64,000 nucleotides of DNA, taken from contig NZ_CP040093.1 of assembly GCF_006016075.1 (NCBI RefSeq), positions 1,666,501-1,730,500 of the forward strand, in the 5' to 3' direction. Position 1 is the first letter of the stretch; each line of letters opens with the position of its first letter. Made by a program: the position numbers and the translations under genes. The notes below the pieces were generated by a model. It ran no database searches. It was not told where the DNA came from and saw nothing but the letters and a program-made list of their open reading frames with translations. Shown in pieces: positions 6,902 through 49,080 of the stretch. Source of the DNA: Caloramator sp. E03. GTDB taxonomy: Bacteria > Bacillota > Clostridia > Clostridiales > Caloramatoraceae.

Positions 6902-8521
6902 ATGTCGGAGGGAAACATTTTATTAAAAGTAGAAAATGTTGGAAAACAATTTGAAGGTAATAGAGTACTGAAGGATGTAAATTTTACCCTCAAAAAAGGG
7001 GAAATATTAGGACTTGTTGGAGAAAATGGTGCAGGTAAATCAACTCTTATGAAAATACTTTTTGGAATGAATGTAATTCATGAAACAGGAGGATATGAAG
7101 GAAATATATACCTTGATGGACAGAAGGTTAACTTCAAAAACCCTCTTGATGCATTAAATGCAGGAATAGGAATGGTACATCAAGAGTTTTCGTTAATACC
7201 TGGATTTACAGCTGCAGAAAATATACTTCTTAATGTTGAGAAAACAAAACCTAATGTTATATCAAAAATATTCGGTAAGAAACTTGAAACTATTGATGAA
7301 AAGGAAATGCAAAAATCAGCACAAAAAGCAATCGAAACTTTAGGGGTTGACATAGATCCAGATACATTAGTATCTGAAATGCCAGTAGGGCATAAGCAAT
7401 TTATAGAAATTGCTAGAGAAATTGATAGGGAGAAAGTTAAGCTTCTTGTTCTTGATGAGCCAACTGCAGTTTTGACTGAAACAGAAGCTGATATACTATT
7501 AAAGGCTATGAGAAGACTTGCTGATTTAGGAGTCTCAATTATTTTTATTTCTCATAGGCTAAATGAAATAATATCATCCTGCGATAAACTTGTTGTTTTA
7601 AGAGATGGTGTAGTTATAGTTGAAAGGCCGGTTGAAGGTGTTAACATAAGGCAAATAGCAGAGTGGATGGTTGGTCGCTCTGTTGAGAGTGAAAGAAATA
7701 TAAAACCACGTGAAAGTAGCGATAAAGACATAATTCTTGAAGTTAAAAACCTCTGGGTAGATATGCCTGGAGAAACTGTAAAAGATGTTACTTTTAGTGT
7801 AAGAAGAGGAGAGATATTTGGAATTGGAGGACTTGCGGGGCAAGGGAAGCTTGGTATTCCAAATGGTATAATGGGACTTTTTGCATCAGGAGGAGAAGTT
7901 AAATTAAATGGTAAAAATCTTCCGCTGAACAATACCTATAATGCACTAAAAAGTGGACTTGCCTTTGTTTCGGAGGACAGAAGAGGGGTAGGACTTTTGC
8001 TTGATGAACCAATTGATATGAATATAGCTTTTAATGCTATGCAGGTTCAAGATAAGTTTATAAAAAAATACCTTGGTGGACTTATTAAGTGGTGTGATGA
8101 TAAAGCAATTAAAGAATGTGCCAATAAATATATAAAAGAGCTTGATATTAAATGTACAAGTGAAAAACAAAAGGTAAGGCAGCTCTCAGGTGGAAATCAG
8201 CAGAAGGTTTGCCTTGCAAAGGCCTTTGCTCTTGAGCCAACGCTTTTATTTGTTTCTGAACCTACAAGAGGTATAGATGTTGGGGCTAAGAAATTAGTTC
8301 TTGATGCTCTAAGACGCTACAATGAGGAGAATAATACCACAATAGTTATGATATCTTCAGAGCTTGAGGAATTACGTTCAATCTGTGATAGGATTGCGAT
8401 TGTAAGTGAAGGTAAAATAGCTGGAATACTTCCAGCAAAGGTTTCCGTTACTGATTTTGGCCTTTTAATGTCTGGGATAGATAAACTTGAGGAAGAAGGT
8501 GAAAGCAATGAACAGAATTAA
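6902..8521 (+). CDS. Sugar/nucleoside-type ABC transporter ATPase (two ABC domains)
   Basis: 539 residues with two ABC domains in tandem, as in RbsA/MglA/NupA-like proteins. Domain 1 has Walker A GENGAGKST, a degenerate signature (EMPVGHKQ) and Walker B LLVLDEPTAVL. Domain 2 has a degenerate Walker A (GGLAGQGKLG), a good signature LSGGNQQK and SEPTRGIDVGAKK. One functional and one degenerate site is normal in this family. It powers the two permeases encoded downstream and should dock to them on the cytoplasmic face. ATG 6902 lies six bases after GAGGTG. The last 14 bases overlap the next gene. Confidence 0.93.
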   Translation: MSEGNILLKVENVGKQFEGNRVLKDVNFTLKKGEILGLVGENGAGKSTLMKILFGMNVIHETGGYEGNIYLDGQKVNFKNPLDALNAGIGMVHQEFSLIPGFTAAENILLNVEKTKPNVISKIFGKKLETIDEKEMQKSAQKAIETLGVDIDPDTLVSEMPVGHKQFIEIAREIDREKVKLLVLDEPTAVLTETEADILLKAMRRLADLGVSIIFISHRLNEIISSCDKLVVLRDGVVIVERPVEGVNIRQIAEWMVGRSVESERNIKPRESSDKDIILEVKNLWVDMPGETVKDVTFSVRRGEIFGIGGLAGQGKLGIPNGIMGLFASGGEVKLNGKNLPLNNTYNALKSGLAFVSEDRRGVGLLLDEPIDMNIAFNAMQVQDKFIKKYLGGLIKWCDDKAIKECANKYIKELDIKCTSEKQKVRQLSGGNQQKVCLAKAFALEPTLLFVSEPTRGIDVGAKKLVLDALRRYNEENNTTIVMISSELEELRSICDRIAIVSEGKIAGILPAKVSVTDFGLLMSGIDKLEEEGESNEQN

Positions 8522-9542
8522 TCAATTTATAAAGAGCTTTGGCTGGCCACGTATAATTATAGCATTATTCTTAATATCATTGTTCATTGCGGGGCCATTT
8601 TTCGGTGTATCAACTGATATGTCTTTAAATGATGTTTTTGTCAGATTCGGAATGAATGCTATTCTTGTTTTGTCAATGGTACCTATGATACAATCTGGCT
8701 GCGGCCTTAACTTTGGTATACCAGTAGGACTTGTTGCAGGGCTTATAGGAGCAGTTATGAGCCTTGAATTAAGGCTAACAGGTATTGTGGGTATATTAGC
8801 AGCCTTTGCAATTGCTATCATTGCAGCAACTATATTTGGATATTTTTATGGAAAACTTCTTAACAGAGTAAAGGGCGATGAAATGATTATCGCAACTTAT
8901 GTTGGTTACTCCTTTATATTCTTTATGAATATGATGTGGATAGTACTTCCTTTTAAAAATCCTTCAAGTGTTCAAGGATTTAAGGGCACAGGACTTCGTG
9001 TAACAATAAGTGTTCAGGAATATTGGTATCATGTTATAAGTGATTTCTTAAAAATAAACATTACTGATCACTTTACTTTCCCAACAGGCATGTTTCTATT
9101 TTTTGCTTTAATGAGTTTTATTGTATGGGCATTTTTTAGAACCAAAATCGGTGTTGCCATAACAGCAGTTGGATCTAATCCTGAATATGCAAGGGCTGCC
9201 GGGATTGATGTTGATAAGATGAGAGTTATATCAGTTATCTTTTCAACGATATTGGCTGCCATTGGAATTATCGTTTACCAGCAAAGCTTTGGTTTCATCC
9301 AGATGTTCAACGCCCCTCTATCCTTTGTTTTTCCATCGGTTGCTGCAATACTTTTAGGTGGGGCATCGGTGAACAAAGCATCAATTGGTAATGTAATAAT
9401 AGGTACTATACTATTCCAGGGCATACTTACTATGACGCCATCTGTTATAAACAGCGCTATAAGCATAGATGTCTCAGAAGTTATAAGAATTATAGTATCA
9501 AATGGTATGATAGTATATGCCTTAACAAGGAAAGCGAGGTAG
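8508..9542 (+). CDS. ABC transporter permease 1 (ribose/BPD_transp_2 type)
   Basis: 344 residues from ATG 8508, preceded by GAAGAAGGTG within the end of the ATPase gene; a TTG at 8487 is a weaker alternative. About nine to ten membrane helices, with the family's cytoplasmic ATPase-contact region around VGSNPEYARAAGID. This is a branched-chain/ribose-type permease (BPD_transp_2 family), paired with the similar permease encoded four bases downstream to form the membrane channel of the DUF3798-linked importer. Confidence 0.9.
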   Translation: MNRINQFIKSFGWPRIIIALFLISLFIAGPFFGVSTDMSLNDVFVRFGMNAILVLSMVPMIQSGCGLNFGIPVGLVAGLIGAVMSLELRLTGIVGILAAFAIAIIAATIFGYFYGKLLNRVKGDEMIIATYVGYSFIFFMNMMWIVLPFKNPSSVQGFKGTGLRVTISVQEYWYHVISDFLKINITDHFTFPTGMFLFFALMSFIVWAFFRTKIGVAITAVGSNPEYARAAGIDVDKMRVISVIFSTILAAIGIIVYQQSFGFIQMFNAPLSFVFPSVAAILLGGASVNKASIGNVIIGTILFQGILTMTPSVINSAISIDVSEVIRIIVSNGMIVYALTRKAR

Positions 9543-9546
9543 AAAC

Positions 9547-10650
9547 ATGGAGCTTAATATGAAATCAGTTAGAAGATTTTTTATAGATAGTGCAGTACCG
9601 ATACTATTTATAATAATAAGTGCAATTGCAATACCCCTTTCAAAATTTACAGGGATATATCTTGTAAGAGAGATTGTAACAAGATTAACAAGGGATACGT
9701 TCCTTGTGCTATCGCTTTTGCTTCCTGTTATGGCTGGTATGGGTATAAACTTTGGTATGGTATTAGGAGCAATGGCAGGACAAATAGGATTAATTTTTGT
9801 TACAGATTGGGGTATTAAAGGGGCTTTAGGATTAGTTGTGGCAATGATTATATCAACACCAATATCCATAATTCTTGGGTACTTTGGTGGAGCTGTTTTA
9901 AATAGAGCAAAGGGACGCGAAATGATAACATCAATGATGCTGGGACTTTTTATATCTGGTATATATCAATTTTTCCTTCTTTATCTTTGCGGAAGCATAA
10001 TACCAATTAAAAATCCAAAGCTTTTGCTATCAAGGGGATATGGAATAAGAAATGCAATAAATCTTGATACTGCAGGAGCCTTTGATAAATTATTAAGGGT
10101 TAAAATAGGAGGAGTTCCTGTTTCCTTTGGAACAATTCTTATTATTGTTGCGATTTGCATATTTACAGCTTGGTTTAGAAAGACAAAACTTGGACAGGAC
10201 ATGAGAGCTGTAGGGCAGGATATGGCTGTTGCTGATGCAGCAGGAATTAAAGTAGAAAAGACTCGTATACAATCAATTATTATATCAACTGTTCTTGCAT
10301 GCTATGGACAGATTATATATCTTCAAAACATAGGGACTATAAACACATACAATGGAGCTGATCAGGCAGCACTGTTTGCAGCAGCAGCACTACTGGTTGG
10401 AGGTGCTACTGTTAGTAAAGCAACAATTTTAAATGCAATAGTAGGTACGGGGCTTTTCCATCTTATGTTTGTAGTTATGCCTATGGCAGGCAAAAACCTT
10501 ACAGGTTCTGCTATGCTTGGTGAATACTTTAGAATGTTCGTATCCTATGGAGTTGTAACAATAGCACTAGTTCTTCATGCGTGGAAGAGACAAAAGGATA
10601 AGGAGATGGACAGGGCTCAGTTTAGAGTCGATGTAAAACCTTCAAAATAA
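9547..10650 (+). CDS. ABC transporter permease 2 (ribose/BPD_transp_2 type)
   Basis: 367 residues, ATG 9547 behind GCGAGGTAG that overlaps the previous stop. It is related to permease 1: both carry an ..RAVG/AVGSN..A.AAGI motif (here MRAVGQDMAVADAAGIKVEK) and a glycine-rich LLVGGATVSKA segment near the end (compare LLGGASVNKA in permease 1). About nine membrane helices and a charged cytoplasmic tail. It is the last gene of the importer operon, followed at once by a strong terminator. Confidence 0.9.
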   Translation: MELNMKSVRRFFIDSAVPILFIIISAIAIPLSKFTGIYLVREIVTRLTRDTFLVLSLLLPVMAGMGINFGMVLGAMAGQIGLIFVTDWGIKGALGLVVAMIISTPISIILGYFGGAVLNRAKGREMITSMMLGLFISGIYQFFLLYLCGSIIPIKNPKLLLSRGYGIRNAINLDTAGAFDKLLRVKIGGVPVSFGTILIIVAICIFTAWFRKTKLGQDMRAVGQDMAVADAAGIKVEKTRIQSIIISTVLACYGQIIYLQNIGTINTYNGADQAALFAAAALLVGGATVSKATILNAIVGTGLFHLMFVVMPMAGKNLTGSAMLGEYFRMFVSYGVVTIALVLHAWKRQKDKEMDRAQFRVDVKPSK

Positions 10651-10654
10651 TATA

Positions 10655-10700
10655 AAACAGAACCGATATAGCCTAAATCAGGTTATATCGGTTCTGTTTT
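10655..10700. terminator. Bidirectional terminator between convergent operons
   Basis: A 19-base stem with one mismatch (AACAGAACCGATATAGCC and GGTTATATCGGTTCTGTT) carries T-runs on both sides. It serves the plus-strand ABC operon and the minus-strand gene that ends at 10703. Confidence 0.85.
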
Positions 10701-10702
10701 GC

Positions 10703-12880
10703 TTAAAATATCTTTTTAAATATATCTCTTAACCATTCAAGGAATCCTTTGCTTTCCTTTGTTTTGGTTTGAACACATGTTTTAGAAACTACGGGAGCTT
10801 TGATCTCCTCAGTTCTCATTATAAATTTGACGCTTCCTTCCATGTCTTCTCCTATTCCACAGAAGGCTTTATAATCCTTAGATAATTTTACTATTTCATC
10901 CTTTGATTTTATTATATCATCAATATTTCCTAATTTACCATTAACCTTTGAGTCTATTTTATCTATTCCCTCATTTTTAAATTTCTTCATATTCTTGTCA
11001 AGTTCCTTTGTACCATTAGAAAGCTTCTCACTTCCCTCATTAAGTTTAACAGAGCCTTCATAAGCACTTTCCATTCCTTTTGAGAATTCATCTGTTCCCT
11101 GTGATAGAGCCATAGAGCCTTGATGGAGAGAATTTAATCCTTCATAGAGATTTTTATTTCCCTGTGCAATGTTTGAAATTGAAGGTCCAACCTGTTTTAA
11201 TCCTTCGCTTAAAACTTTGCTCGACTCTGTAAGCTTATTTGCACCTTCAGATAGTGAATTTCCTGCATTTTGAAGTTCCTGTGCATGGGATTTTAAAGTT
11301 TCTCCTCCCTTTGAAATCAAATATGCGCCATCAGCAGCTTTTTTTTGACCATCCTGAAGGGATGAGAGAGCTGAATTTAGATTATCTGTACCGTTTTTAA
11401 TGCTTACAATCCCTGCTTCAAGCTGAGATAGAGCCTCAACATATTGATTTCCTGAATCAAGAAGCTGTTTTAGGTAAGCTTTTTGAGTTTCAAGGCCTGA
11501 TGTAAGCTTCTCTTGAATTTCCTTTGCCTGTGGGATTGGAGATAAAAGTGAAACTATTGTTTCAAGACCGTCAACACCCTTAATCAAAAGTTCTATTGCA
11601 CTGTTTTCTTTTGTTTTTGCTTCTTTTAATTTTGATATAACTTCAAGGCTTTTTGAAGCACCATCGGATATCTGCTTTTCACCGTTTTTAATCTGCTCAG
11701 TGGCTGAAAGGAGCTTATTTAGTCCATCATAAAGTTCACCAGTTTTTTGAGATAACTCCATTGTACCATCTGCAATTTTAACTGCTCCATCTGCAAACTT
11801 TTTTGAGCCTGTAGCAAAGTTTTCAGCTCCATTTGCATAATCTACTGTTCCCTTTGAAAGCTTTTCTGTGCCTGAAGATAATGCAGCTGCCCCCTCGTAA
11901 AGCTTTTTTGCCCCATTTAATGCATCTTCAGTGCCTTTTGTAAGCTTTTTTGCACCATCGTTTATCTTCTTTGAAAATGAATTAAGAGTATCAAGACCTA
12001 ATGTTAGTTTATTCATGTTGTCAGAAAGTTCCTTAGCACCCTGTGCTATTTTTCCTGTACCATCGGATAGTTTGTAGGTTGCATCCTTAATTTTTGAAAT
12101 ACCATCGATTAAGTCTTTTATGTTGTTAGCTCCTTCAATCTTACCTATATCAATTATTTTTGGAGTTGCGGTTATAATAATTGGTTTTAATTCAAAGTTT
12201 GTGCACTCTGCTTCAATTGTTAAGTTTTCAGGTATATCGATTAAACTCTCATCAATTCCAAGGCTGTCTTTAAGTCCCAATACTGTTGCAAAGGTTATAA
12301 CCTGATTGTTTCCATCGGATAGCATTTCTCCAGAGTTTATCTTTACGTTTTTAAAATTATCAAGGGGCAGATTAACAGCTGCAACAACTGTAAAAGGAGT
12401 ATATATAACTTTATTTTTACCATTTATCTTTGCTGTGTGGGCATCTTTATTCTTTAATTCTATATTTATTTTAATTTTACCACTTTTTCCCGCAATTTCT
12501 TCAGGGCTTACTTTGCTTCCATCTAAATAGTAACTAATATTAATATTTATTGGAAGAGATTTATCGGTTTTCCCCTGATAGAATATATCGTTTTTGTTTG
12601 TTTTCCAAATTAAAGTATCCCCAGATATAATTGGCTTTTCATCGCCTTTTACATTAGTAATAGAGCTTAATGTGGATTTGTCCTTTATTTCTATATCAGC
12701 CTTGTCGCTATGAAGATAGTCGCTTACAATGACTTCCTTTTTTTGCCCCTCTGCAGATAATATTGCATATACAGATTCATCCTTTTTAACTAAATCCTTT
12801 GCAAAGGCTATATTTGTCAGCATAAAGCATGCTATTGAAAATATGGCTACTGTTTTTACAAAATAATTTTTAATTGTCAT
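10703..12880 (-). CDS. Exported repeat-rich partner protein of an MMPL transporter (YhgE/Pip-like)
   Basis: 725 residues. A signal peptide (hydrophobic residues 9-26, cleavage after NIAFA) is followed by a beta-rich domain to about 250. Residues about 255-660 are a long run of short helical repeats of the form xxLxxGxxxL, for example AKKLYEGAAALSSGTEKLSKG, typical of YhgE/Pip-like proteins. Unlike YhgE it has no terminal block of membrane helices; it ends in an amphipathic FLEWLRDIFKKIF. Its ribosome site overlaps the stop of the MMPL gene, so the two are translated together and probably act together at the cell surface. The exact role is unknown. Confidence 0.7.
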   Translation of the reverse strand: MTIKNYFVKTVAIFSIACFMLTNIAFAKDLVKKDESVYAILSAEGQKKEVIVSDYLHSDKADIEIKDKSTLSSITNVKGDEKPIISGDTLIWKTNKNDIFYQGKTDKSLPININISYYLDGSKVSPEEIAGKSGKIKINIELKNKDAHTAKINGKNKVIYTPFTVVAAVNLPLDNFKNVKINSGEMLSDGNNQVITFATVLGLKDSLGIDESLIDIPENLTIEAECTNFELKPIIITATPKIIDIGKIEGANNIKDLIDGISKIKDATYKLSDGTGKIAQGAKELSDNMNKLTLGLDTLNSFSKKINDGAKKLTKGTEDALNGAKKLYEGAAALSSGTEKLSKGTVDYANGAENFATGSKKFADGAVKIADGTMELSQKTGELYDGLNKLLSATEQIKNGEKQISDGASKSLEVISKLKEAKTKENSAIELLIKGVDGLETIVSLLSPIPQAKEIQEKLTSGLETQKAYLKQLLDSGNQYVEALSQLEAGIVSIKNGTDNLNSALSSLQDGQKKAADGAYLISKGGETLKSHAQELQNAGNSLSEGANKLTESSKVLSEGLKQVGPSISNIAQGNKNLYEGLNSLHQGSMALSQGTDEFSKGMESAYEGSVKLNEGSEKLSNGTKELDKNMKKFKNEGIDKIDSKVNGKLGNIDDIIKSKDEIVKLSKDYKAFCGIGEDMEGSVKFIMRTEEIKAPVVSKTCVQTKTKESKGFLEWLRDIFKKIF

Positions 12881-42886: not shown

Positions 42887-43072
42887 TTAACTTTTCTGAA
42901 AATCATGATTCTGAAAACTTTTTTCATAGTCAGAATGTGCTTTATTTGAAACAGTATTACAATAAGGACATACAGCTTCAGAATTTTTAGATTTAATATA
43001 TATAGTATCTTCTATTATTTCATACTTCTCTAAAGTTAACCTTTTATCCAATAGCGCTATTAATTCTTCCAT
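42887..43072 (-). pseudogene. Truncated ISL3-family transposase (N-terminal remnant)
   Basis: 61 codons from ATG 43072, with AAAGGAGA upstream. The sequence has the N-terminal zinc-finger region of ISL3-type transposases: YEIIEDTIYIKSKNSEAVCPYCNTVS, then SDYEKSFQN (short quotes of the region). Full-length proteins have about 400 residues with a DDE core, none of which follows; the frame breaks into stops after residue 61, and 42661-42886 shows no further coding match. No terminal inverted repeats were found. It is the relic of an insertion element lying between the radical SAM gene and the lipoyl operon; 43113-43199 holds another short frame of 28 codons with no ribosome site. Confidence 0.72.
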
Positions 43073-43182: not shown

Positions 43183-43211
43183 TTGAAAAGAAAAAATAAT
43201 TATATTATAAT
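43183..43211 (+). promoter_or_regulatory. Promoter of the lipoyl/DGC operon
   Basis: TTGAAA (43183-43188) and TATAAT (43206-43211) with an exact 17-base spacer, 53 bases before the first gene. It is the only convincing promoter seen ahead of the nine-gene run. Confidence 0.75.
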
Positions 43212-43263
43212 TTAATTATATAATAAATAATCAAATATTCATTTAAGATAAGGATGTGATGAA

Positions 43264-43743
43264 ATGTGGACATATAGCTTATATGGAATTACCATTGTCC
43301 TACTACTAATTTCGTATAAAAATGACAAGAAAAAAACAAAGTTGGCATTGAAAAAGGCTTGGAAGTCATTCGAAAATATTTTACCTGAATTTTTAGGAGT
43401 AATAATGTTAGTTGGAATATTGCTATCTGTATTAAATCCTGAGGTTATATCAAGGATAATTGGAAAAGAATCAGGCTTATTTGGTGTAATAGTTTCTGCA
43501 ATAGTGGGTTCAATTACCTTAATACCTGGGTTTGTTGCATTTCCAACAGCAGCACTTTTATTAAAATCAGGTGCAGGCTATACACAAATAGCAGCCTTTA
43601 TTTCAACACTTATGATGGTGGGTATTGTTACTATGCCGGTTGAAACAAAATACTTTGGTAAAAAAATAACAATATCAAGAAATGTTTTAGCTTTTTTATT
43701 TTCATTTTTAGTAGCCTTCATTATAGGAAAGGTTGTGATGTGA
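43264..43743 (+). CDS. Half-size permease, subunit 1 (ArsP/DUF318-like)
   Basis: 159 residues with about four to five membrane helices, including the family-like segment ITLIPGFVAFPTAALLLKSGAGYTQIAAF (key parts IPGF and FPTAALL). Full-length permeases of this family (COG0701) carry two such halves in one chain; here each half is a separate gene and the second follows one base later. ATG 43264 is behind AAGGATGTG. The substrate is unknown; arsenic-organic, sulfur or metal compounds are possible. It opens the operon of redox and lipoyl genes. Confidence 0.78.
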   Translation: MWTYSLYGITIVLLLISYKNDKKKTKLALKKAWKSFENILPEFLGVIMLVGILLSVLNPEVISRIIGKESGLFGVIVSAIVGSITLIPGFVAFPTAALLLKSGAGYTQIAAFISTLMMVGIVTMPVETKYFGKKITISRNVLAFLFSFLVAFIIGKVVM

Positions 43744-43744
43744 T

Positions 43745-44278
43745 ATGAGTAAGTTTATAAAAAGATATAGATTTTTTATTATTACTGTTGTTGCACTTTT
43801 AATACTTATGGGAGTTAATTTTAAAGTAGGTGTAAAGGCTTTAAATATTGTAGGATATAGCTTTAAAGAAATGTTGTTAGTCATACCACCAATATTTGTT
43901 TTATTAGGACTTCTTGATATATGGGTCCCAAGGGACACAATGATAGGACTAATGGGAGAAGGTTCAGGAATAAAAGGAATCCTTCTTGCGATATTTTTAG
44001 GTTCAGCAGCAGCGGGTCCACTTTATGGTGCTTTCCCAATAGCAGCTGTGTTCATGAAAAAGGGAGTTAAATTTACAAATATATTAATTTTTATTGGAGC
44101 TTGGTCAACAACAAAAATACCTATGTTCTTATTTGAATTATCATCACTTGGAACAAAGTTTGCTCTAACAAGATTACTTGTTGATATACCTGGAATAATA
44201 ATTATAGCATTTATTTTATCTAAAATGATAAGTAAAGGTGAAATTGAGGAAATATATAAAAATGCGGAGAAACTTTAA
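43745..44278 (+). CDS. Half-size permease, subunit 2 (ArsP/DUF318-like)
   Basis: 177 residues, about five membrane helices. It mirrors subunit 1: GAFPIAAVFMKKGVKFTNI aligns with its FPTAALLLKSGAGYTQI segment. The pair of half-permeases presumably forms a heterodimeric transporter. ATG 43745 overlaps the previous stop region (TGATATGAG). The tight spacing to the flavoenzyme gene (16 bases) argues that the transported compound is a substrate or product of the redox system encoded downstream. Confidence 0.78.
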   Translation: MSKFIKRYRFFIITVVALLILMGVNFKVGVKALNIVGYSFKEMLLVIPPIFVLLGLLDIWVPRDTMIGLMGEGSGIKGILLAIFLGSAAAGPLYGAFPIAAVFMKKGVKFTNILIFIGAWSTTKIPMFLFELSSLGTKFALTRLLVDIPGIIIIAFILSKMISKGEIEEIYKNAEKL

Positions 44279-44294
44279 TGGGGAGGGCTTTTAA

Positions 44295-45677
44295 ATGGAA
44301 ACAATTTACAGGGATTATGTAATTTTAGGAGGAGGACCAACGGGTTATTATGCAGCTATTCATGGAGCTAAATTAGGTGCAAATATAACTCTTATAGAAG
44401 ATAAAGAAATTGGTGGAGTATGCCTAAATAAAGGTTGTATACCTACCAAAGCCCTTTTAAAATCTTCAGGAATAATTAAAGAAGTAAAAAGAGCAAAAGA
44501 ATTTGGTATAGATGCAGATATTAAAAAAATAAACTTAGAAATAGCAGTAGATAGAAAAAATAGAGTAGTAAAAGCACTAAATATGGGTTTATCAAGTCTG
44601 ATCAATTCAAATAAAATAGAACTTATTAAAGGAAGAGGAATATTAAAGAGTAAAAATCAAATATTAATCGAGTCAAAAGAGGAAACAAAAGTAATTCAGT
44701 TTAAAAAATTAATCATCTCAACAGGAGCATCACCAATTATTCCAAACATTGAAGGAGTAACAAACGAAGGTGTATTAACTAGTGATGAACTATTAGATTT
44801 AAAAACAATGCCACAGGAGATAGTAATTATTGGGGCAGGTGTTATTGGACTTGAATTTGCAGAGATGTACTCATCATTTTCAAAGGTAACTGTAATTGAA
44901 GTTAGAGATAAATTATATTTATCAGATGAAGAAATAGATAACGAACTTCTAAAAATAATGAAAAGAAAGGGAATAAACTTTAAATTTAATTCTAAAGTTA
45001 TACGCATAAACAAAATAAATGACAAACTTGAAGTGGTTTTTGAAGAAAATGGCAAAGAAAACAGTATAAAAACTGATAATGTTCTTTTATCCTGTGGAAG
45101 AAGGCCCAACATATCAAAAGATATGATAGATATAGGATTAGATATTAAAAATGGAGCTTTAGTTGTTAATAAGGAATTTAAAACAAATATAGAAAATATA
45201 TATGCAGCAGGAGATGTTATTGGTGGAAAGCAACTTGCTCATTTGAGCTTTGCTGAAGGAAGATGTGCAATAGAGAATGCATTAGGTATTAAATCAAAAT
45301 TAAACTATAATGCTGTTCCAAATTGTATATATACAGAACCAGAGGTTGCAACGGTTGGTATGACAGAGTCTGAAGCAAGCAGTAAAGGCTATGAAGTTAA
45401 AATAGGAAAATATTATTTTAGGAATAATGGCAGAGCACTTACTTTAGGAAATAGAGATGGATTTGTTAAGGTGGTTGTTGATAAAAATAGTAACATAGTT
45501 TTAGGGGCTCAAATATTAGGGGAAAGTGCTTCAGAGATGATTTCGGAACTGACATTAGCTATAACATTAAAGGCTGATGTAAATATATTATCTACAATGA
45601 TTCATCCACATCCAACTTTATCAGAGGCTATATTTGAGGCCTGTGGAGATGCTTGTGGGATGTCAGTTCATAAATAA
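44295..45677 (+). CDS. Dihydrolipoyl dehydrogenase-like flavoenzyme
   Basis: 460 residues. The features of lipoamide dehydrogenase are complete: FAD motif GGGPTGYYAA, redox-active disulfide GGVCLNKGCIPTK, NAD motif GAGVIGLEFAEMY, second FAD motif IYAAGDVIGGKQLAH and the C-terminal HPHPTLSEAIFEA with catalytic His-Glu. It should exchange electrons between NAD(H) and a dihydrolipoyl group. The matching lipoyl carrier is encoded in the same operon (46362-47213), and no 2-oxoacid dehydrogenase or glycine cleavage genes are near, so its partner is probably that carrier. ATG 44295 behind GGGGAGGG. Confidence 0.95.
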   Translation: METIYRDYVILGGGPTGYYAAIHGAKLGANITLIEDKEIGGVCLNKGCIPTKALLKSSGIIKEVKRAKEFGIDADIKKINLEIAVDRKNRVVKALNMGLSSLINSNKIELIKGRGILKSKNQILIESKEETKVIQFKKLIISTGASPIIPNIEGVTNEGVLTSDELLDLKTMPQEIVIIGAGVIGLEFAEMYSSFSKVTVIEVRDKLYLSDEEIDNELLKIMKRKGINFKFNSKVIRINKINDKLEVVFEENGKENSIKTDNVLLSCGRRPNISKDMIDIGLDIKNGALVVNKEFKTNIENIYAAGDVIGGKQLAHLSFAEGRCAIENALGIKSKLNYNAVPNCIYTEPEVATVGMTESEASSKGYEVKIGKYYFRNNGRALTLGNRDGFVKVVVDKNSNIVLGAQILGESASEMISELTLAITLKADVNILSTMIHPHPTLSEAIFEACGDACGMSVHK

Positions 45678-45695
45678 AAATAGGGAGGTTTTAAA

Positions 45696-46073
45696 ATGAG
45701 TGAAAGACAGTTGCCAGGATTTATTATGTGTGTTTGTACAGGGAAGTGTCCAGGCTTTCAAGCTATGGACATATGGGATTTTATTAACCAAGTTAGGGTA
45801 GAGTTACCTGTTGAGTATGGATTTATCCATCCACAGCTTTGCGAAGAAGATGGGGACAGATTTCTAGCTGACTTTTTAAAGGCACATAGGAAGCTAATTA
45901 TAGGTGCTTGTGCTCCAAATATGCAAAGAAAAATGTTTAAACAAGCATTTATAGATGCAGGACTTGATATAGAAAAGGATGCTGTAATGTTAGATATTAG
46001 AGACATGACAAATGAGAAGGCAATTGAGGTTGTTAAAAAAGCATTGAGTGATTTAGGGTTTGAGGAGGCTTAA
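45696..46073 (+). CDS. HdrA N-terminal-like cysteine protein
   Basis: 125 residues. It resembles only the N-terminal domain of heterodisulfide reductase subunit A: VCTGKCPGF early, LCEEDG at about residue 50, then LIIGACAPNMQRKMFKQAF, which parallels the 'VVAACSP..HE..FR' segment of HdrA. The flavin and ferredoxin domains of a full HdrA (about 650 residues) are missing from this chain; a ferredoxin is encoded next and a flavoenzyme before it. The Cys residues could bind an Fe-S cluster or accept sulfur. ATG 45696 behind AGGGAGG. Confidence 0.75.
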   Translation: MSERQLPGFIMCVCTGKCPGFQAMDIWDFINQVRVELPVEYGFIHPQLCEEDGDRFLADFLKAHRKLIIGACAPNMQRKMFKQAFIDAGLDIEKDAVMLDIRDMTNEKAIEVVKKALSDLGFEEA

Positions 46074-46075
46074 AC

Positions 46076-46369
46076 ATGAGTGAATCAACTTTTATGGGGG
46101 TTCCAAGGGAGAAAATAGATTGGAGCCCAAGAATAGACTATGAAAAGTGCAATTATTGTATGGAGTGTGTAAAGTTTTGTCCACATGATGTGTATGAAGT
46201 AAGGGAAAATGAAGATAAAAAATTAATAGTAAAAAACCCGAACAATTGCGTTGTATTTTGCCGTGCATGTGGAAAAACTTGTGGTGTTGATGCAATAAGC
46301 TTTCCTAATAAAGCGGAGGTAACAAATAAGATAAAGCAATTGAGAATGGAGATGGAGCAAAATGGATAA
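46076..46369 (+). CDS. Two-cluster ferredoxin
   Basis: 97 residues with two 4Fe-4S sites: CNYCMECVKFCP (CxxCxxCxxxCP) and CVVFCRACGKTC followed by GVDAISFP. It should carry electrons between the flavoenzyme, the HdrA-like protein and other partners. Its start overlaps the previous gene's ribosome region (GAGGAGGCTTAAACATG), and its last eight bases overlap the fusion-protein gene, so translation is coupled. Confidence 0.9.
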   Translation: MSESTFMGVPREKIDWSPRIDYEKCNYCMECVKFCPHDVYEVRENEDKKLIVKNPNNCVVFCRACGKTCGVDAISFPNKAEVTNKIKQLRMEMEQNG

Positions 46370-47213
46370 AAAAACAGCTATTCTTCCATGCAATGGCTTA
46401 GACAAATGTGCTGGATGTGTTTCAAGAGAAATAGCAATAAAACTTCAAGAAGAGAAAAATGCAGAAATCATATGTCCTGTACTTTTTAGGGTAGCTGATG
46501 CAAGATACAACAAAGTAGCAAGTGAAAATGAGCTTATTGTAATTGATGGATGCAATACAAGATGTGCCACTAAATTAGCATCAGAGAAAAATTTAAAGGT
46601 TAGCAGAAAGATAAATGTAACAGAGGCTTCAAAACAATATGGAATAGAGATTCAAAGTAAGCTTCAAATAGGTGAGAATGAAAAAAAGTTAATTGATATG
46701 ATTTTAGAAGACATATTGAAAAAAGATGATTCTAATGGAGAAAATTCTTCTATATTATTTCCAAAGGTATTAGATTATGAAATATATAAGAAGGATAAAT
46801 TTATATTTAGGCTTCCTAAAGAAGGGTTTTATTTTAATGAAAATGACGTTTGGGTTTATGTTCAAGGTAATTTAGCTAGAATTGGAGTTACAGATTATGT
46901 TCAACAAAGCTTATCAGACATAATGTTTTTTACACCACCTATTGTAGGAAGCGAAGTTGAACAATTTGATGAGGTAGGAGCTATTGAATCAGGTAAAGCT
47001 GTTTTTGAAGTTATATCACCTGTTAGTGGTAAGGTCATAAGGGTAAATGAAGCATTGCTTTCAAATCCAGAATATATAAATGAAAATCCATTTGAAAAGG
47101 GGTGGATTGCAGAGATTGAACTTAAAGATTTTGAATCAGATAAAATGCTTTTATTAGAGTTTGATGAGTATTTTGAAAAAATGAAAAGAAAGGTGGATGA
47201 GTTTCATGTCTAA
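46362..47213 (+). CDS. DGC-domain / GcvH-like lipoyl carrier fusion
   Basis: 283 residues in two parts. Residues 1-120 are a DGC-type domain, with Cys10, Cys16, Cys19, Cys38, the signature IDGC (Cys64) and Cys68. Residues about 135-283 are a glycine-cleavage-H-like domain: VWVYVQGNLARIGVTDY, then AIESGKAVFEVISPVSG with Lys212 as the lipoylation site, and NPFEKGWIAEIEL. The lysine context matches GcvH (ESVKA). A lipoyl swinging arm tethered to a cysteine-rich, probably metal-binding domain is unusual. No gcvP or gcvT is present, so it is not part of a glycine cleavage complex here. Confidence 0.88.
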   Translation: MDKKTAILPCNGLDKCAGCVSREIAIKLQEEKNAEIICPVLFRVADARYNKVASENELIVIDGCNTRCATKLASEKNLKVSRKINVTEASKQYGIEIQSKLQIGENEKKLIDMILEDILKKDDSNGENSSILFPKVLDYEIYKKDKFIFRLPKEGFYFNENDVWVYVQGNLARIGVTDYVQQSLSDIMFFTPPIVGSEVEQFDEVGAIESGKAVFEVISPVSGKVIRVNEALLSNPEYINENPFEKGWIAEIELKDFESDKMLLLEFDEYFEKMKRKVDEFHV

Positions 47214-47601
47214 AGTGGTTGTAATCCCATGTAGTGGTATGGGTAAAGTTTATGGTCTTTTAGCAAGAGAAGCAGCAAATAAAGTTGTTAATGAGTTAAA
47301 GAAGGATGAAGCAGAAACAAAATGTCTAGCATATATTGTAACTGGTGATGATGAGATAAGAGATTATATGAATGGGAAAAAATGTATAACAATCGATGGG
47401 TGCCCTAAGATGTGTGCTGCTAAAAATGCTAGAGAAGCTGGGGCAGAGGTTGTTGAAGAATTAAAATCAACTGATTTTGCAAAACAAATGAGAGCAATGA
47501 AGCCAGGAACAGCTACTTATTTAAATGAAGAAGGATGGCAAGTAGTTGATGCTATAGCAGAAAAAATAACAACTATTATCGATGAAATGGAGGGAAAATA
47601 A
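47206..47601 (+). CDS. DGC-domain protein 2
   Basis: 131 residues from ATG 47206, which has AGGTGG nine bases upstream; ATG 47197 is too close to it. Cysteines: IPCSGMG near residue 9, TKCLAY, and GKKCITIDGCPKMCAAK, the DGC signature. It overlaps the fusion gene by eight bases. It lacks the extra Cys16/Cys19-type pair of the first DGC domain. Proteins of this family are annotated as putative zinc-binding proteins; the function is not established. Two paralogues plus the fusion domain in one operon suggest they form a complex or act on successive intermediates. Confidence 0.85.
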   Translation: MSKVVVIPCSGMGKVYGLLAREAANKVVNELKKDEAETKCLAYIVTGDDEIRDYMNGKKCITIDGCPKMCAAKNAREAGAEVVEELKSTDFAKQMRAMKPGTATYLNEEGWQVVDAIAEKITTIIDEMEGK

Positions 47602-48084
47602 ATGAGTGATATAAAAATAGGGGTTGTATCTTGCAGTGGAGAAGAATGTTTTGGAGGAACAATATCAAGGCTTGCTACAAGAAAGGTATTAGAGGATTTA
47701 AGGCTAGGTGAGGCTGTTACAATTTGTCTTCCTCTTTTTATAGCAGGTGGTGAGGAAGAGAGAAATTTTGCTAAAGTATACCCTACAGTTGCTGTTGATG
47801 GATGCTCAAAGCTTTGTGCAATGAGAGCAACAGAGAAATATAGTGGAAAGGTTAATGCTGTTGTTAAAGTTGATGAAATTATAGGAAAAGAAAAAGCATT
47901 AGAAAAGGTAGTTTCATTAAGGGAATTACCAAGCGATTATATGGAATTAGTAGATAAAGTGGCGCAAGAAATATGTAAAGAGATGGATAAAATATCAAGT
48001 GATATACTAAAAAAACAAGCTGAAGAGGAACTTAAAAATAGCGGTGAATGTTCAGGTGGATGTTGCTGTTGTGGTTGTAAATAA
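47602..48084 (+). CDS. DGC-domain protein 3 with a cysteine-rich tail
   Basis: 160 residues. VVSCSGEECFGG (Cys pair), TICLPLF, and VAVDGCSKLCAMR give the DGC pattern. The C-terminus, unlike the other two, ends in GECSGGCCCCGCK, six cysteines within 13 residues. That tail may hold a metal or Fe-S cluster or carry sulfane sulfur. The ATG directly abuts the stop of DGC protein 2 (AAATAAATG), so they are translationally coupled. Confidence 0.85.
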   Translation: MSDIKIGVVSCSGEECFGGTISRLATRKVLEDLRLGEAVTICLPLFIAGGEEERNFAKVYPTVAVDGCSKLCAMRATEKYSGKVNAVVKVDEIIGKEKALEKVVSLRELPSDYMELVDKVAQEICKEMDKISSDILKKQAEEELKNSGECSGGCCCCGCK

Positions 48085-48099
48085 TGGAGGTATAAACTA

Positions 48100-49080
48100 G
48101 TGTATTATTTATACAATAGAAGTTTAGATCCATATTTTAATTTGGCATTAGAAGAATATTTTTTAACAAATTTTAAAGATGAATTTTTCATAGTCTGGAG
48201 AAATGACAATTGTATAGTAGTTGGTAAAAATCAAAATACTTATTCAGAAATAAATTCAAATTATGTTTCTGAAAATGGAATAAAGGTTGTAAGGAGACTA
48301 ACGGGTGGCGGTGCGGTTTACCATGATAAAGGGAACATCAATTTTACTTTTATAAAAAATTCAGATTTACATCATTTTAGCTTTAATGATTTTTTAGAGC
48401 CCATAGTTAGTTTCTTAAAAATATTTGATATAGATGCTAAAATATCAGGAAGAAATGATATAGTAATTGATGATAAAAAAATATCTGGGAATGCACAGAC
48501 TATTTTAAAGGGAAGAGTATTACATCATGGAACTTTACTGTATTCCTCTGATATTAAAAATATATCTGGTGCACTAAATGTTGCAAAGGAAAAATATGAA
48601 ACAAAGGCAGTAAAATCTGTAGAAAAAAGGGTAACTAATATATGTGATAATTTAAAAGAAAGATTAACTGTAGAAGAATTTATAGAACAATTTAGCAGAT
48701 ATATATCAAGTAATATGGATATAAAAGAATATAATTTAACAGAAAAAGATATTTTAGAAATAAAAAAGTTAGCAGATAATAAGTATTCCAAATTTGAATG
48801 GAATTTTGGTATGTCTCCAAAGTTTAATTATAGGAATACAAAAAAATTTCCCCAGGGATTGATTGAGGTATATTTACAGGTAGAGAATTCAATAATAAAT
48901 AGTGTTAAAATATATGGGGATTTTTTTAGTATGGGAGATATAAAAGAAATAGAAGATATGTTGAAGGGATGTATATACAAAAAGTCAGAAATAAAAGATA
49001 GGCTTAGTTCTTTGGACTTTAACAAATACTTTATAGGAATTAGTTTGGATGATTTTATAACTATTTTTGATATTAATTAG
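48100..49080 (+). CDS. lplA: Lipoate-protein ligase A
   Basis: 326 residues from GTG 48100, behind GGAGG. It activates lipoate with ATP and attaches it to lysines. Typical LplA segments are present: RSLDPYFNLALEEYFL, VVGKNQNTYSEIN, RRLTGGGAVYHDKGNINFTF and DIVIDDKKISGNAQ, with the C-terminal accessory domain to residue 326. Placed last in the operon it should lipoylate the GcvH-like domain encoded at 46362-47213. As in sHdr-LbpA clusters, a dedicated ligase accompanies a dedicated carrier. Confidence 0.95.
   Translation: MYYLYNRSLDPYFNLALEEYFLTNFKDEFFIVWRNDNCIVVGKNQNTYSEINSNYVSENGIKVVRRLTGGGAVYHDKGNINFTFIKNSDLHHFSFNDFLEPIVSFLKIFDIDAKISGRNDIVIDDKKISGNAQTILKGRVLHHGTLLYSSDIKNISGALNVAKEKYETKAVKSVEKRVTNICDNLKERLTVEEFIEQFSRYISSNMDIKEYNLTEKDILEIKKLADNKYSKFEWNFGMSPKFNYRNTKKFPQGLIEVYLQVENSIINSVKIYGDFFSMGDIKEIEDMLKGCIYKKSEIKDRLSSLDFNKYFIGISLDDFITIFDIN

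Follow-up and report, generated by a model that had tools for sequence, protein, structure and literature searches.

The operon described here occupies positions 43264–49080 of the forward strand of a 64,000-nucleotide stretch of the Caloramator sp. E03 chromosome (contig NZ_CP040093.1, positions 1,666,501 to 1,730,500; hereafter the window), which sits in a single-contig genome (G000) of 2,984,770 bases that is 97.8% complete. It comprises nine open reading frames (ORFs) in one tight cluster, separated, in operon order and according to the ORF table from which the coordinates were verified, by 1, 16, 18, 2, −8, −17, 0 and 15 bases. All nine lie where the initial annotation had placed them, and its family names for the dihydrolipoyl dehydrogenase, the ferredoxin, the DGC/GcvH fusion, the DGC proteins, LplA and the half permeases fit the Pfam and NCBIfam assignments:

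43264..43743, + strand: PermA, half-size ArsP_1-like permease (PF03773, 30.3 bits, just under the cut-off of 32.3)
43745..44278, + strand: PermB, half-size ArsP_1-like permease (PF03773, 50.3 bits, above cut-off)
44295..45677, + strand: Lpd, dihydrolipoyl dehydrogenase (TIGR01350, 493 bits; cut-off 408.8)
45696..46073, + strand: HdrN, stand-alone HdrA N-terminal-like protein of 125 amino acids, probably an Fe-S protein (HdrA profile match)
46076..46369, + strand: Fd, 2[4Fe-4S] ferredoxin (Fer4 families)
46362..47213, + strand: DGC-GcvH fusion, lipoyl carrier with predicted lipoyl Lys212 (PF08859, 70.3 bits; PF01597 (GCV_H), 114 bits)
47197..47601, + strand: DGC2, single DGC domain (PF08859, 59.6 bits)
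47602..48084, + strand: DGC3, DGC domain with a Cys-rich tail (PF08859, 58 bits)
48100..49080, + strand: LplA, lipoate-protein ligase with a GTG start (TIGR00545, 414.6 bits; cut-off 280)

PermA and PermB each span roughly half of the PF03773 profile. A weak match of PermA to the NCBIfam efflux family SaoE (19.8 bits) falls far under the cut-off of 325, and none of the core proteins scores above the cut-off of any ars-named family in Pfam or NCBIfam. In Lpd, the CxxxxC pair (C43/C48) and an HPHP motif are invariant over 13 aligned rows. The likeness of HdrN to the N terminus of HdrA, as initially annotated, is faint when measured against the NCBIfam HdrA model (17.2 bits, covering profile positions 9–92 of 771), but a profile built from 11 HdrN relatives finds an HdrA chain, 7bkb_A, among solved structures (E 2.1e-4, HdrA residues 8–93). 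C12, C14, C18 and C49 of HdrN are present in 18/18 rows and C72 in 17/18; the eight cysteines of the ferredoxin are invariant in 17/17. The fusion protein falls below the cut-off of the glycine cleavage GcvH model TIGR00527 (100.8 bits against 115.85) and reaches that of the broader PRK01202 (117.1 against 117).

The DGC domains of the operon score 58–70 bits against a PF08859 cut-off of 27. Across 63 DGC domains, only four cysteines (C10, C41, C67 and C71; 63/63 each) and two glycines are invariant; the cysteines in the DGC3 tail show no conservation in the alignment. In a predicted structure of DGC2 (predicted local distance difference test score 95.5), one of the four cysteines stands at the start of a helix and the other three come after strands, an arrangement in which the four would probably cluster in space. 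The model of the DGC-GcvH fusion is good for its DGC part only. Comparison of the DGC2 model with the PDB gave no clear relative (best Z 7.9, root mean squared deviation 3.3, 105 residues aligned, with many tied alpha/beta folds), and the best Foldseek E value was 0.033. The fold of the pI258 arsenate reductase was among the matches (Z 7.4 for the DGC-GcvH model, 6.5 for DGC2), but nothing is drawn from this because it is tied with sugar isomerases and flavodoxins. We know of no function assigned to the DGC family.

The initial annotation had remarked that the neighborhood encodes neither gcvP nor a 2-oxoacid dehydrogenase, and this holds genome-wide: no match to GDC-P (GcvP) was found in the whole 2.98-Mb genome (control genomes match in 10/14), no E2 catalytic domain (PF00198; found in 1/10 module genomes) and no lipoyl synthase (LipA) above cut-off, the best score being 27.5 bits against 310. 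The DGC-GcvH fusion is the sole strong GcvH match in the genome, a second one (22.6 bits) lying in a 153-amino-acid frame that matches the biotin/lipoyl domain strongly. Likewise, the operon's Lpd is the only one above cut-off, and the three DGC domains that the genome search found all belong to the operon. Judged from this gene content, the lipoyl carrier is dedicated to the module, and since GcvP, E2 and LipA were not found in G000, glycine cleavage is not its job there. This supports the proposal that the operon forms a lipoyl-linked redox module that is not part of the usual complexes and has a ligase, a reductase and a permease of its own.

A tree of GcvH sequences bears on the possibility, raised earlier, that the carrier is used by a glycine cleavage complex encoded elsewhere. 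It compared the gcvP-adjoining GcvHs of nine genomes with 18 of the 23 complete module carriers (all except those of loci L104–L108; loci and genomes are designated L and G throughout). The glycine-cleavage GcvHs formed one separate clade (branch length 1.05, support 1.000), and in six cases (G043, G261, G237, G013, G371 and G030) both kinds came from one genome, the glycine-cleavage GcvH being a separate protein in the separate clade; G000 itself yielded no GcvP. The lipoyl lysine in its ES-x-K motif is kept in 23/23 complete module copies, that of the window included, with ES(G/A/S)K in the module carriers versus ESVK in all nine glycine-cleavage rows compared.

Beyond the window, 24 loci with the module were collected: ten from a scan with the fusion protein, seven from an HdrN profile search that sampled 398 genomes of the phylum, and seven from one that sampled 391 genomes of the class. 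This count excludes the locus of the window itself as well as L054 and L056, which share contigs with L014 and L012. Some of the 24 are kin: L057–L060 represent one genus (four genomes), L104–L105 another, and L106–L107 a single genome. The initial annotation had suggested looking for the same gene set in other genomes, and the core HdrN-Fd-DGC-GcvH-DGC2-DGC3 is indeed complete and in the same order in 22/24 of these Bacillota loci, with protein identities of ~44–91%. The incomplete ones are L015, which is cut at a contig end, and L061, which is decayed; in the latter (positions 8400–10953) Lpd is full length, HdrN is broken, no DGC gene was found after HdrN, and an ArsR gene is retained. The loci from the fusion scan, which include Caloramator fervidus, Fusibacter sp. 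3D3 and metagenome-assembled genomes labelled Symbiobacteriaceae, Oscillospiraceae and Peptostreptococcaceae, all carry Lpd-HdrN-Fd-DGC-GcvH in order; DGC2-DGC3 follows in nine of them, and the remaining one stops at a contig edge within the fusion.

Scores in the phylum-wide HdrN search fell into tiers: module HdrNs at 217–266 bits in nine genomes, Caloramator sp. E03 included, together with a truncated copy at 130 bits; another stand-alone family at 110–121 bits in 14 genomes; and weak matches (≤35 bits), mostly to long HdrA-like frames. The class-wide search found HdrN in 7/391 genomes at E ≤ 1e-15, again with the own genome included. Lpd heads the core in 14/24 loci, and all nine genomes with Lpd-less modules have an Lpd above cut-off outside the core; in G679 (L104), one of several Lpd genes lies ~3 kb downstream of it. 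An LplA-like gene is found near the core in 7/24. GDC-P scores above cut-off in 9/16 module genomes and not in the other seven, one of which, G109, has a completeness of only 81%. Five of the seven (G000, G206, G109, G484 and G507) have no Lpd above cut-off other than that of the module. A longer additional DGC protein lies near the module in L007 (4983–5477, − strand) and L057 (11635–12117, + strand), with PF08859 scores of 82 and 74 bits. No plasmid match to HdrN was obtained by tblastn against 72,556 plasmid records. Plasmid spread was also considered for the DGC-GcvH fusion, which matched 154 records, none across more than 80% of the query, with the best 30 of the 154 lying on or around the GcvH part. 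No PHROGs family was found for HdrN, DGC-GcvH or DGC2, and both plasmid spread and a phage link were rejected.

Genes near these modules were counted with a uniform script over stretches of up to ~10 kb on each side of the core, and 20 windows in 11 of the genomes, placed by hand at round coordinates, served as controls. The association of the module with arsenic genes is, by these counts, strong. A gene of the ArsR family is present in 22/24 module loci versus 1/20 control windows (Fisher p 4e-9, kinship ignored), directly upstream (<350 bp) in 11/24 and within 3 kb of the core in 18/24; L013 begins 343 bases ahead of the core, so that an upstream ArsR could not show. The nearest ArsR carries a CxC motif, the mark of the As(III)-type repressors, in 21/22 module loci, whereas the lone control ArsR has no cysteine. 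Ars effectors (ACR3-, ArsA-, ArsD-, ArsC-, ArsP- or ArsM-like) occur in 14/24 loci versus 1/20 controls (Fisher p 3e-4, kinship ignored), the control match being an ArsM-like methyltransferase in L078. By type, the 24 loci contain ACR3 in six, ArsD in six, ArsA in five, ArsC in five, ArsP in five and ArsM-like proteins in three. Representatives score above the NCBIfam cut-offs for ACR3 (397 bits), ArsA (844), ArsD (129), ArsC (203) and the metalloregulator ArsR, as do the ArsM proteins of L012 and L055 (291 and 338 bits), the former inside a fusion just downstream of LplA; the Pfam ArsP_1 score in L006 is 243 bits. On account of these neighbors in relatives, the substrate, left at ‘thiol, sulfur or metalloid’ in the initial annotation, can be narrowed toward arsenic.

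Other neighbors recur as well. A cysteine desulfurase is found in 8/24 module loci versus 1/20 controls and an Fe-S protein in 8/24 versus 0/20, both together in L053, L057, L059, L060, L104, L105 and L107. L057–L060 encode a 110-amino-acid protein with a CGCGCGG-type motif; those copies of it that were tested matched nothing in Pfam or NCBIfam. Two complete modules, L106 and L107, are present in the single genome G768, one in an ars island and the other with only an ArsR nearby. The PermA-PermB pair accompanies 7/24 module loci and none of the 20 controls.

This pair also occurs with the second stand-alone HdrN family (Fd-HdrN), in 3/11 loci (10/35 for both families together), and in one of these, L063, the two proteins are 83% and 75% identical to those of the window. 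Fd-HdrN was found in 14/398 genomes of the phylum, and regions around 11 of its genes were fetched (L062–L072, at ~9000–10200 in each). They contain a small ferredoxin in 10/11, ArsR in 11/11, in each case with CxC in the nearest copy, and ars effectors in 10/11, with ACR3 and ArsC among the neighbors; the 11 fetched regions yielded neither DGC nor GcvH-like domains. A further arrangement is seen in G206, in which a second cluster (L053, 16004–18880; L109, 504–3380) reads ArsR-DGC2-DGC3-two small biotin/lipoyl domain proteins-LplA paralogue, followed by a radical SAM/SPASM protein, a CMD protein and a full-length ArsP_1 permease. As far as domain content goes, this cluster speaks for a functional link between the DGC proteins and an arm of the lipoyl type, Pfam being unable to separate lipoyl from biotinyl domains.

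Upstream of the operon, three candidate control elements follow a short ORF (42887–43072, − strand) that we take to resemble the zinc-finger start of an ISL3-type transposase:

43183..43211, + strand: sigma-70-like promoter match, TTGAAA-17-TATAAT, 11/12 consensus bases
43196..43219, no strand assigned: AT-rich near-palindrome over the −10 element, candidate ArsR-type operator, 11/12 base pairs complementary
43227..43250, no strand assigned: second operator-like site, 2 mismatches to a consensus partly derived from the same site

The promoter is the one proposed in the initial annotation; its agreement with the consensus stands, but the number of such matches in the region is not above chance (43 versus 39.4 ± 6.6 expected). 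In L102, a perfect 24-base palindrome lies between a divergent arsR and Lpd, and it matches the window once (3 mismatches), on the −10 element of the operon, the sole such match in 64 kb; 100 whole-window shuffles, which ignore local AT richness, gave 0 matches. The near-palindrome thus hints at control shared with arsR, a reading that is suggestive only, because the local sequence is very AT-rich. The match at 43227–43250 is circular, since the consensus was partly drawn from that site. A TCAAAT/ATTTGA operator was rejected, as it stands out only in the window (2/60 simple shuffles equal it) and in 0/22 other upstream stretches. The arsR that the genome itself carries (L094) has a promoter without the palindrome.

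We give about an even chance to the reading that the operon encodes an arsenic-handling redox module, in the form of a dithiol/Fe-S system under ArsR control by which arsenicals are reduced or passed on. It is evenly balanced, too, whether protein-bound lipoate would here have a metalloid role, with the lipoyl arm, the DGC domains and a dismantled HdrA (HdrN, Fd and, as flavoprotein, Lpd) forming a reductase or shuttle for arsenicals in anaerobes, driven by ferredoxin and reduced nicotinamide adenine dinucleotide (NADH). From the gene set, its conservation, its context and its conserved residues, as established by sequence comparison, we infer the following lipoylation, electron path, substrate and direction. 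LplA would attach lipoate to Lys212 of the DGC-GcvH fusion, and NADH via Lpd, together with reduced ferredoxin via HdrN, would hold the lipoyl arm as a dithiol. This arm and the four-cysteine DGC sites would then reduce a pentavalent arsenical (arsenate or methylarsenate) or, alternatively, retain the trivalent product in a dithiol adduct, dithiols being tight binders of trivalent arsenic. The trivalent arsenical may pass on to ArsM or to an exporter, which would be PermAB in the window and ACR3 or ArsP in relatives. Where a locus has no Lpd of its own, one encoded at another site in the genome would stand in.

Several observations weigh against an arsenic role. The ArsR model (10 seeds) and the effector seeds were taken from the studied loci themselves, with the same thresholds applied to the controls, and with related genomes counted once the figures become 17/19 for ArsR and 10/19 for effectors. 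The window contains no ArsR or clear ars gene within 64 kb (one 16-bit match to an ArsM seed is taken as another methyltransferase), and neither does L103, which has the same gene order with PermAB and LplA beside the core, within 19 kb; moreover, the Caloramator genome has a normal arsR-ACR3-arsC group ~0.73 Mb away. In ten of the 24 loci, the sequence fetched contains no ars effector. Among those counted as having one, L105 owes this to a single ArsD-like gene of 53 bits, L013 to an ArsM-like gene under the cut-off (206 versus 263) and L060 to a lone ArsP; this ArsP-like permease beside the module (L060, 8365–9323) is split across three frames and apparently broken. The nearest ArsR is more than 3 kb from the core or absent in six loci, and ArsR-family repressors also sense other metals. 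Finally, 5/24 modules have an ArsC nearby that would make plain arsenate reduction by the module superfluous, which weakens the case for a plain arsenate-reductase role.

The alternative that survives best, although we hold it to be unlikely, is an arsenic chaperone without net reduction, in which the DGC domains and the lipoyl arm would bind As(III) and deliver it to exporters in the way that ArsD serves ArsA, with Lpd and Fd-HdrN only keeping thiols reduced. The four cysteines invariant over 63 DGC domains would suit this, as would the affinity of dithiols for As(III) and the presence of ArsA in 5/24 and ArsD in 6/24 module loci; however, for such a task a 2[4Fe-4S] ferredoxin and two routes of electron entry seem costly, and HdrN, mostly with a ferredoxin, also lies near ars genes in the 11 Fd-HdrN loci, where neither a DGC nor a GcvH-like domain turned up in the fetched sequence.

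A defense directed at some other thiol reagent, soft metal or metalloid (antimony, mercury, selenium or tellurium), with arsenic incidental, appears quite improbable. ArsR-type repressors and ACR3 also meet antimonite, and the window itself has no clear ars gene, but the ArsC and ArsM neighbors of its relatives belong to families named for arsenic. There is similarly only a small chance that the module serves sulfur chemistry, as a carrier of persulfides or thioarsenicals akin in spirit to sHdr-LbpA, with sulfur supplied by a cysteine desulfurase. The frequency of desulfurase and Fe-S protein genes relative to controls, as given above, speaks for it, as does the resemblance of a GcvH-like carrier with its own ligase, Lpd and an Hdr piece to sHdr-LbpA (PMC6067878). 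By contrast, the operon encodes no HdrB- or HdrC-like domain, and the link to ArsR (22/24) is stronger than that to the desulfurase (8/24). An ordinary lipoyl carrier, for glycine cleavage or for relaying lipoate to other complexes, is hardly credible: the GcvH fold and its lysine are conserved and GcvP is above cut-off in 9/16 module genomes, but GcvP, E2 and LipA were not found in G000 and the GcvHs beside gcvP in other genomes form a separate clade.

The operon was compared with four known systems, namely glycine cleavage, the 2-oxoacid dehydrogenase complexes, sHdr-LbpA and the ars operon. The first shares with it a GcvH-type lipoyl domain and Lpd, but membership is rejected because no GDC-P match was found in G000, and the carriers read ES(G/A/S)K rather than ESVK; the second is rejected because G000 gave no E2 (PF00198) match. 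HdrB-/HdrC-like subunits in the cluster are, we presume, a defining feature of sHdr-LbpA. The close tie to sHdr raised at the outset was not borne out, no such domain being found in the nine ORFs (sulfur-oxidation genes in relatives were not searched for), and membership is rejected. What the two have in common (PMC6067878) is a GcvH-like lipoyl carrier outside carbon metabolism, an LplA-like ligase nearby, an Hdr-related protein and, in archaeal sHdr versions, a linked Lpd. Unlike sHdr-LbpA, the operon possesses only a stand-alone HdrA N-terminal-like domain without HdrB or HdrC, its carrier is fused to DGC, and its relatives lie near ArsR and ars genes. Likeness to ars operons (arsR-ACR3-arsC-arsA-arsD-arsP-arsM) consists in their being frequent neighbors in relatives, in the CxC ArsR and in the partial match of PermAB to ArsP_1, but not every module copy lies in an ars cluster, and the window unit has no ArsR in 64 kb. 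As for HdrA of the CoB-CoM heterodisulfide reductase, HdrN aligns with HdrA residues, and a ferredoxin and a flavin adenine dinucleotide (FAD)-dependent disulfide reductase are present as separate proteins, whereas HdrN has no fused FAD domain, HdrBC is absent and the flavoprotein is of the Lpd type.

For each of the known systems considered, the gene set lacks at least one of the defining features tested; its parts belong to known families and its function is putative. In the open-access literature, there was no paper on Sao among the matches listed, nor a description of the gene set or anything joining DGC or lipoate to arsenic operons among the matches listed, a few papers with arsenic and lipoate or dihydrolipoamide terms being unexamined.

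Dithiols are a classic target of arsenic poisoning, and for that reason a lipoyl carrier acting on arsenic would, if true, add a chemically apt role for lipoate, in which the poisoned cofactor becomes a tool. Lipoate is known from five complexes of carbon metabolism and from the sHdr sulfur pathway (PMC6067878). The module would then be the first lipoate system for a toxic element, would provide a testable function for the DGC family and for the stand-alone HdrA-N family, and may bear on the speciation of arsenic by anaerobes. A conserved module usually near arsenic sensors, and often near exporters, suggests a previously undescribed way of handling arsenic in anaerobic bacteria.

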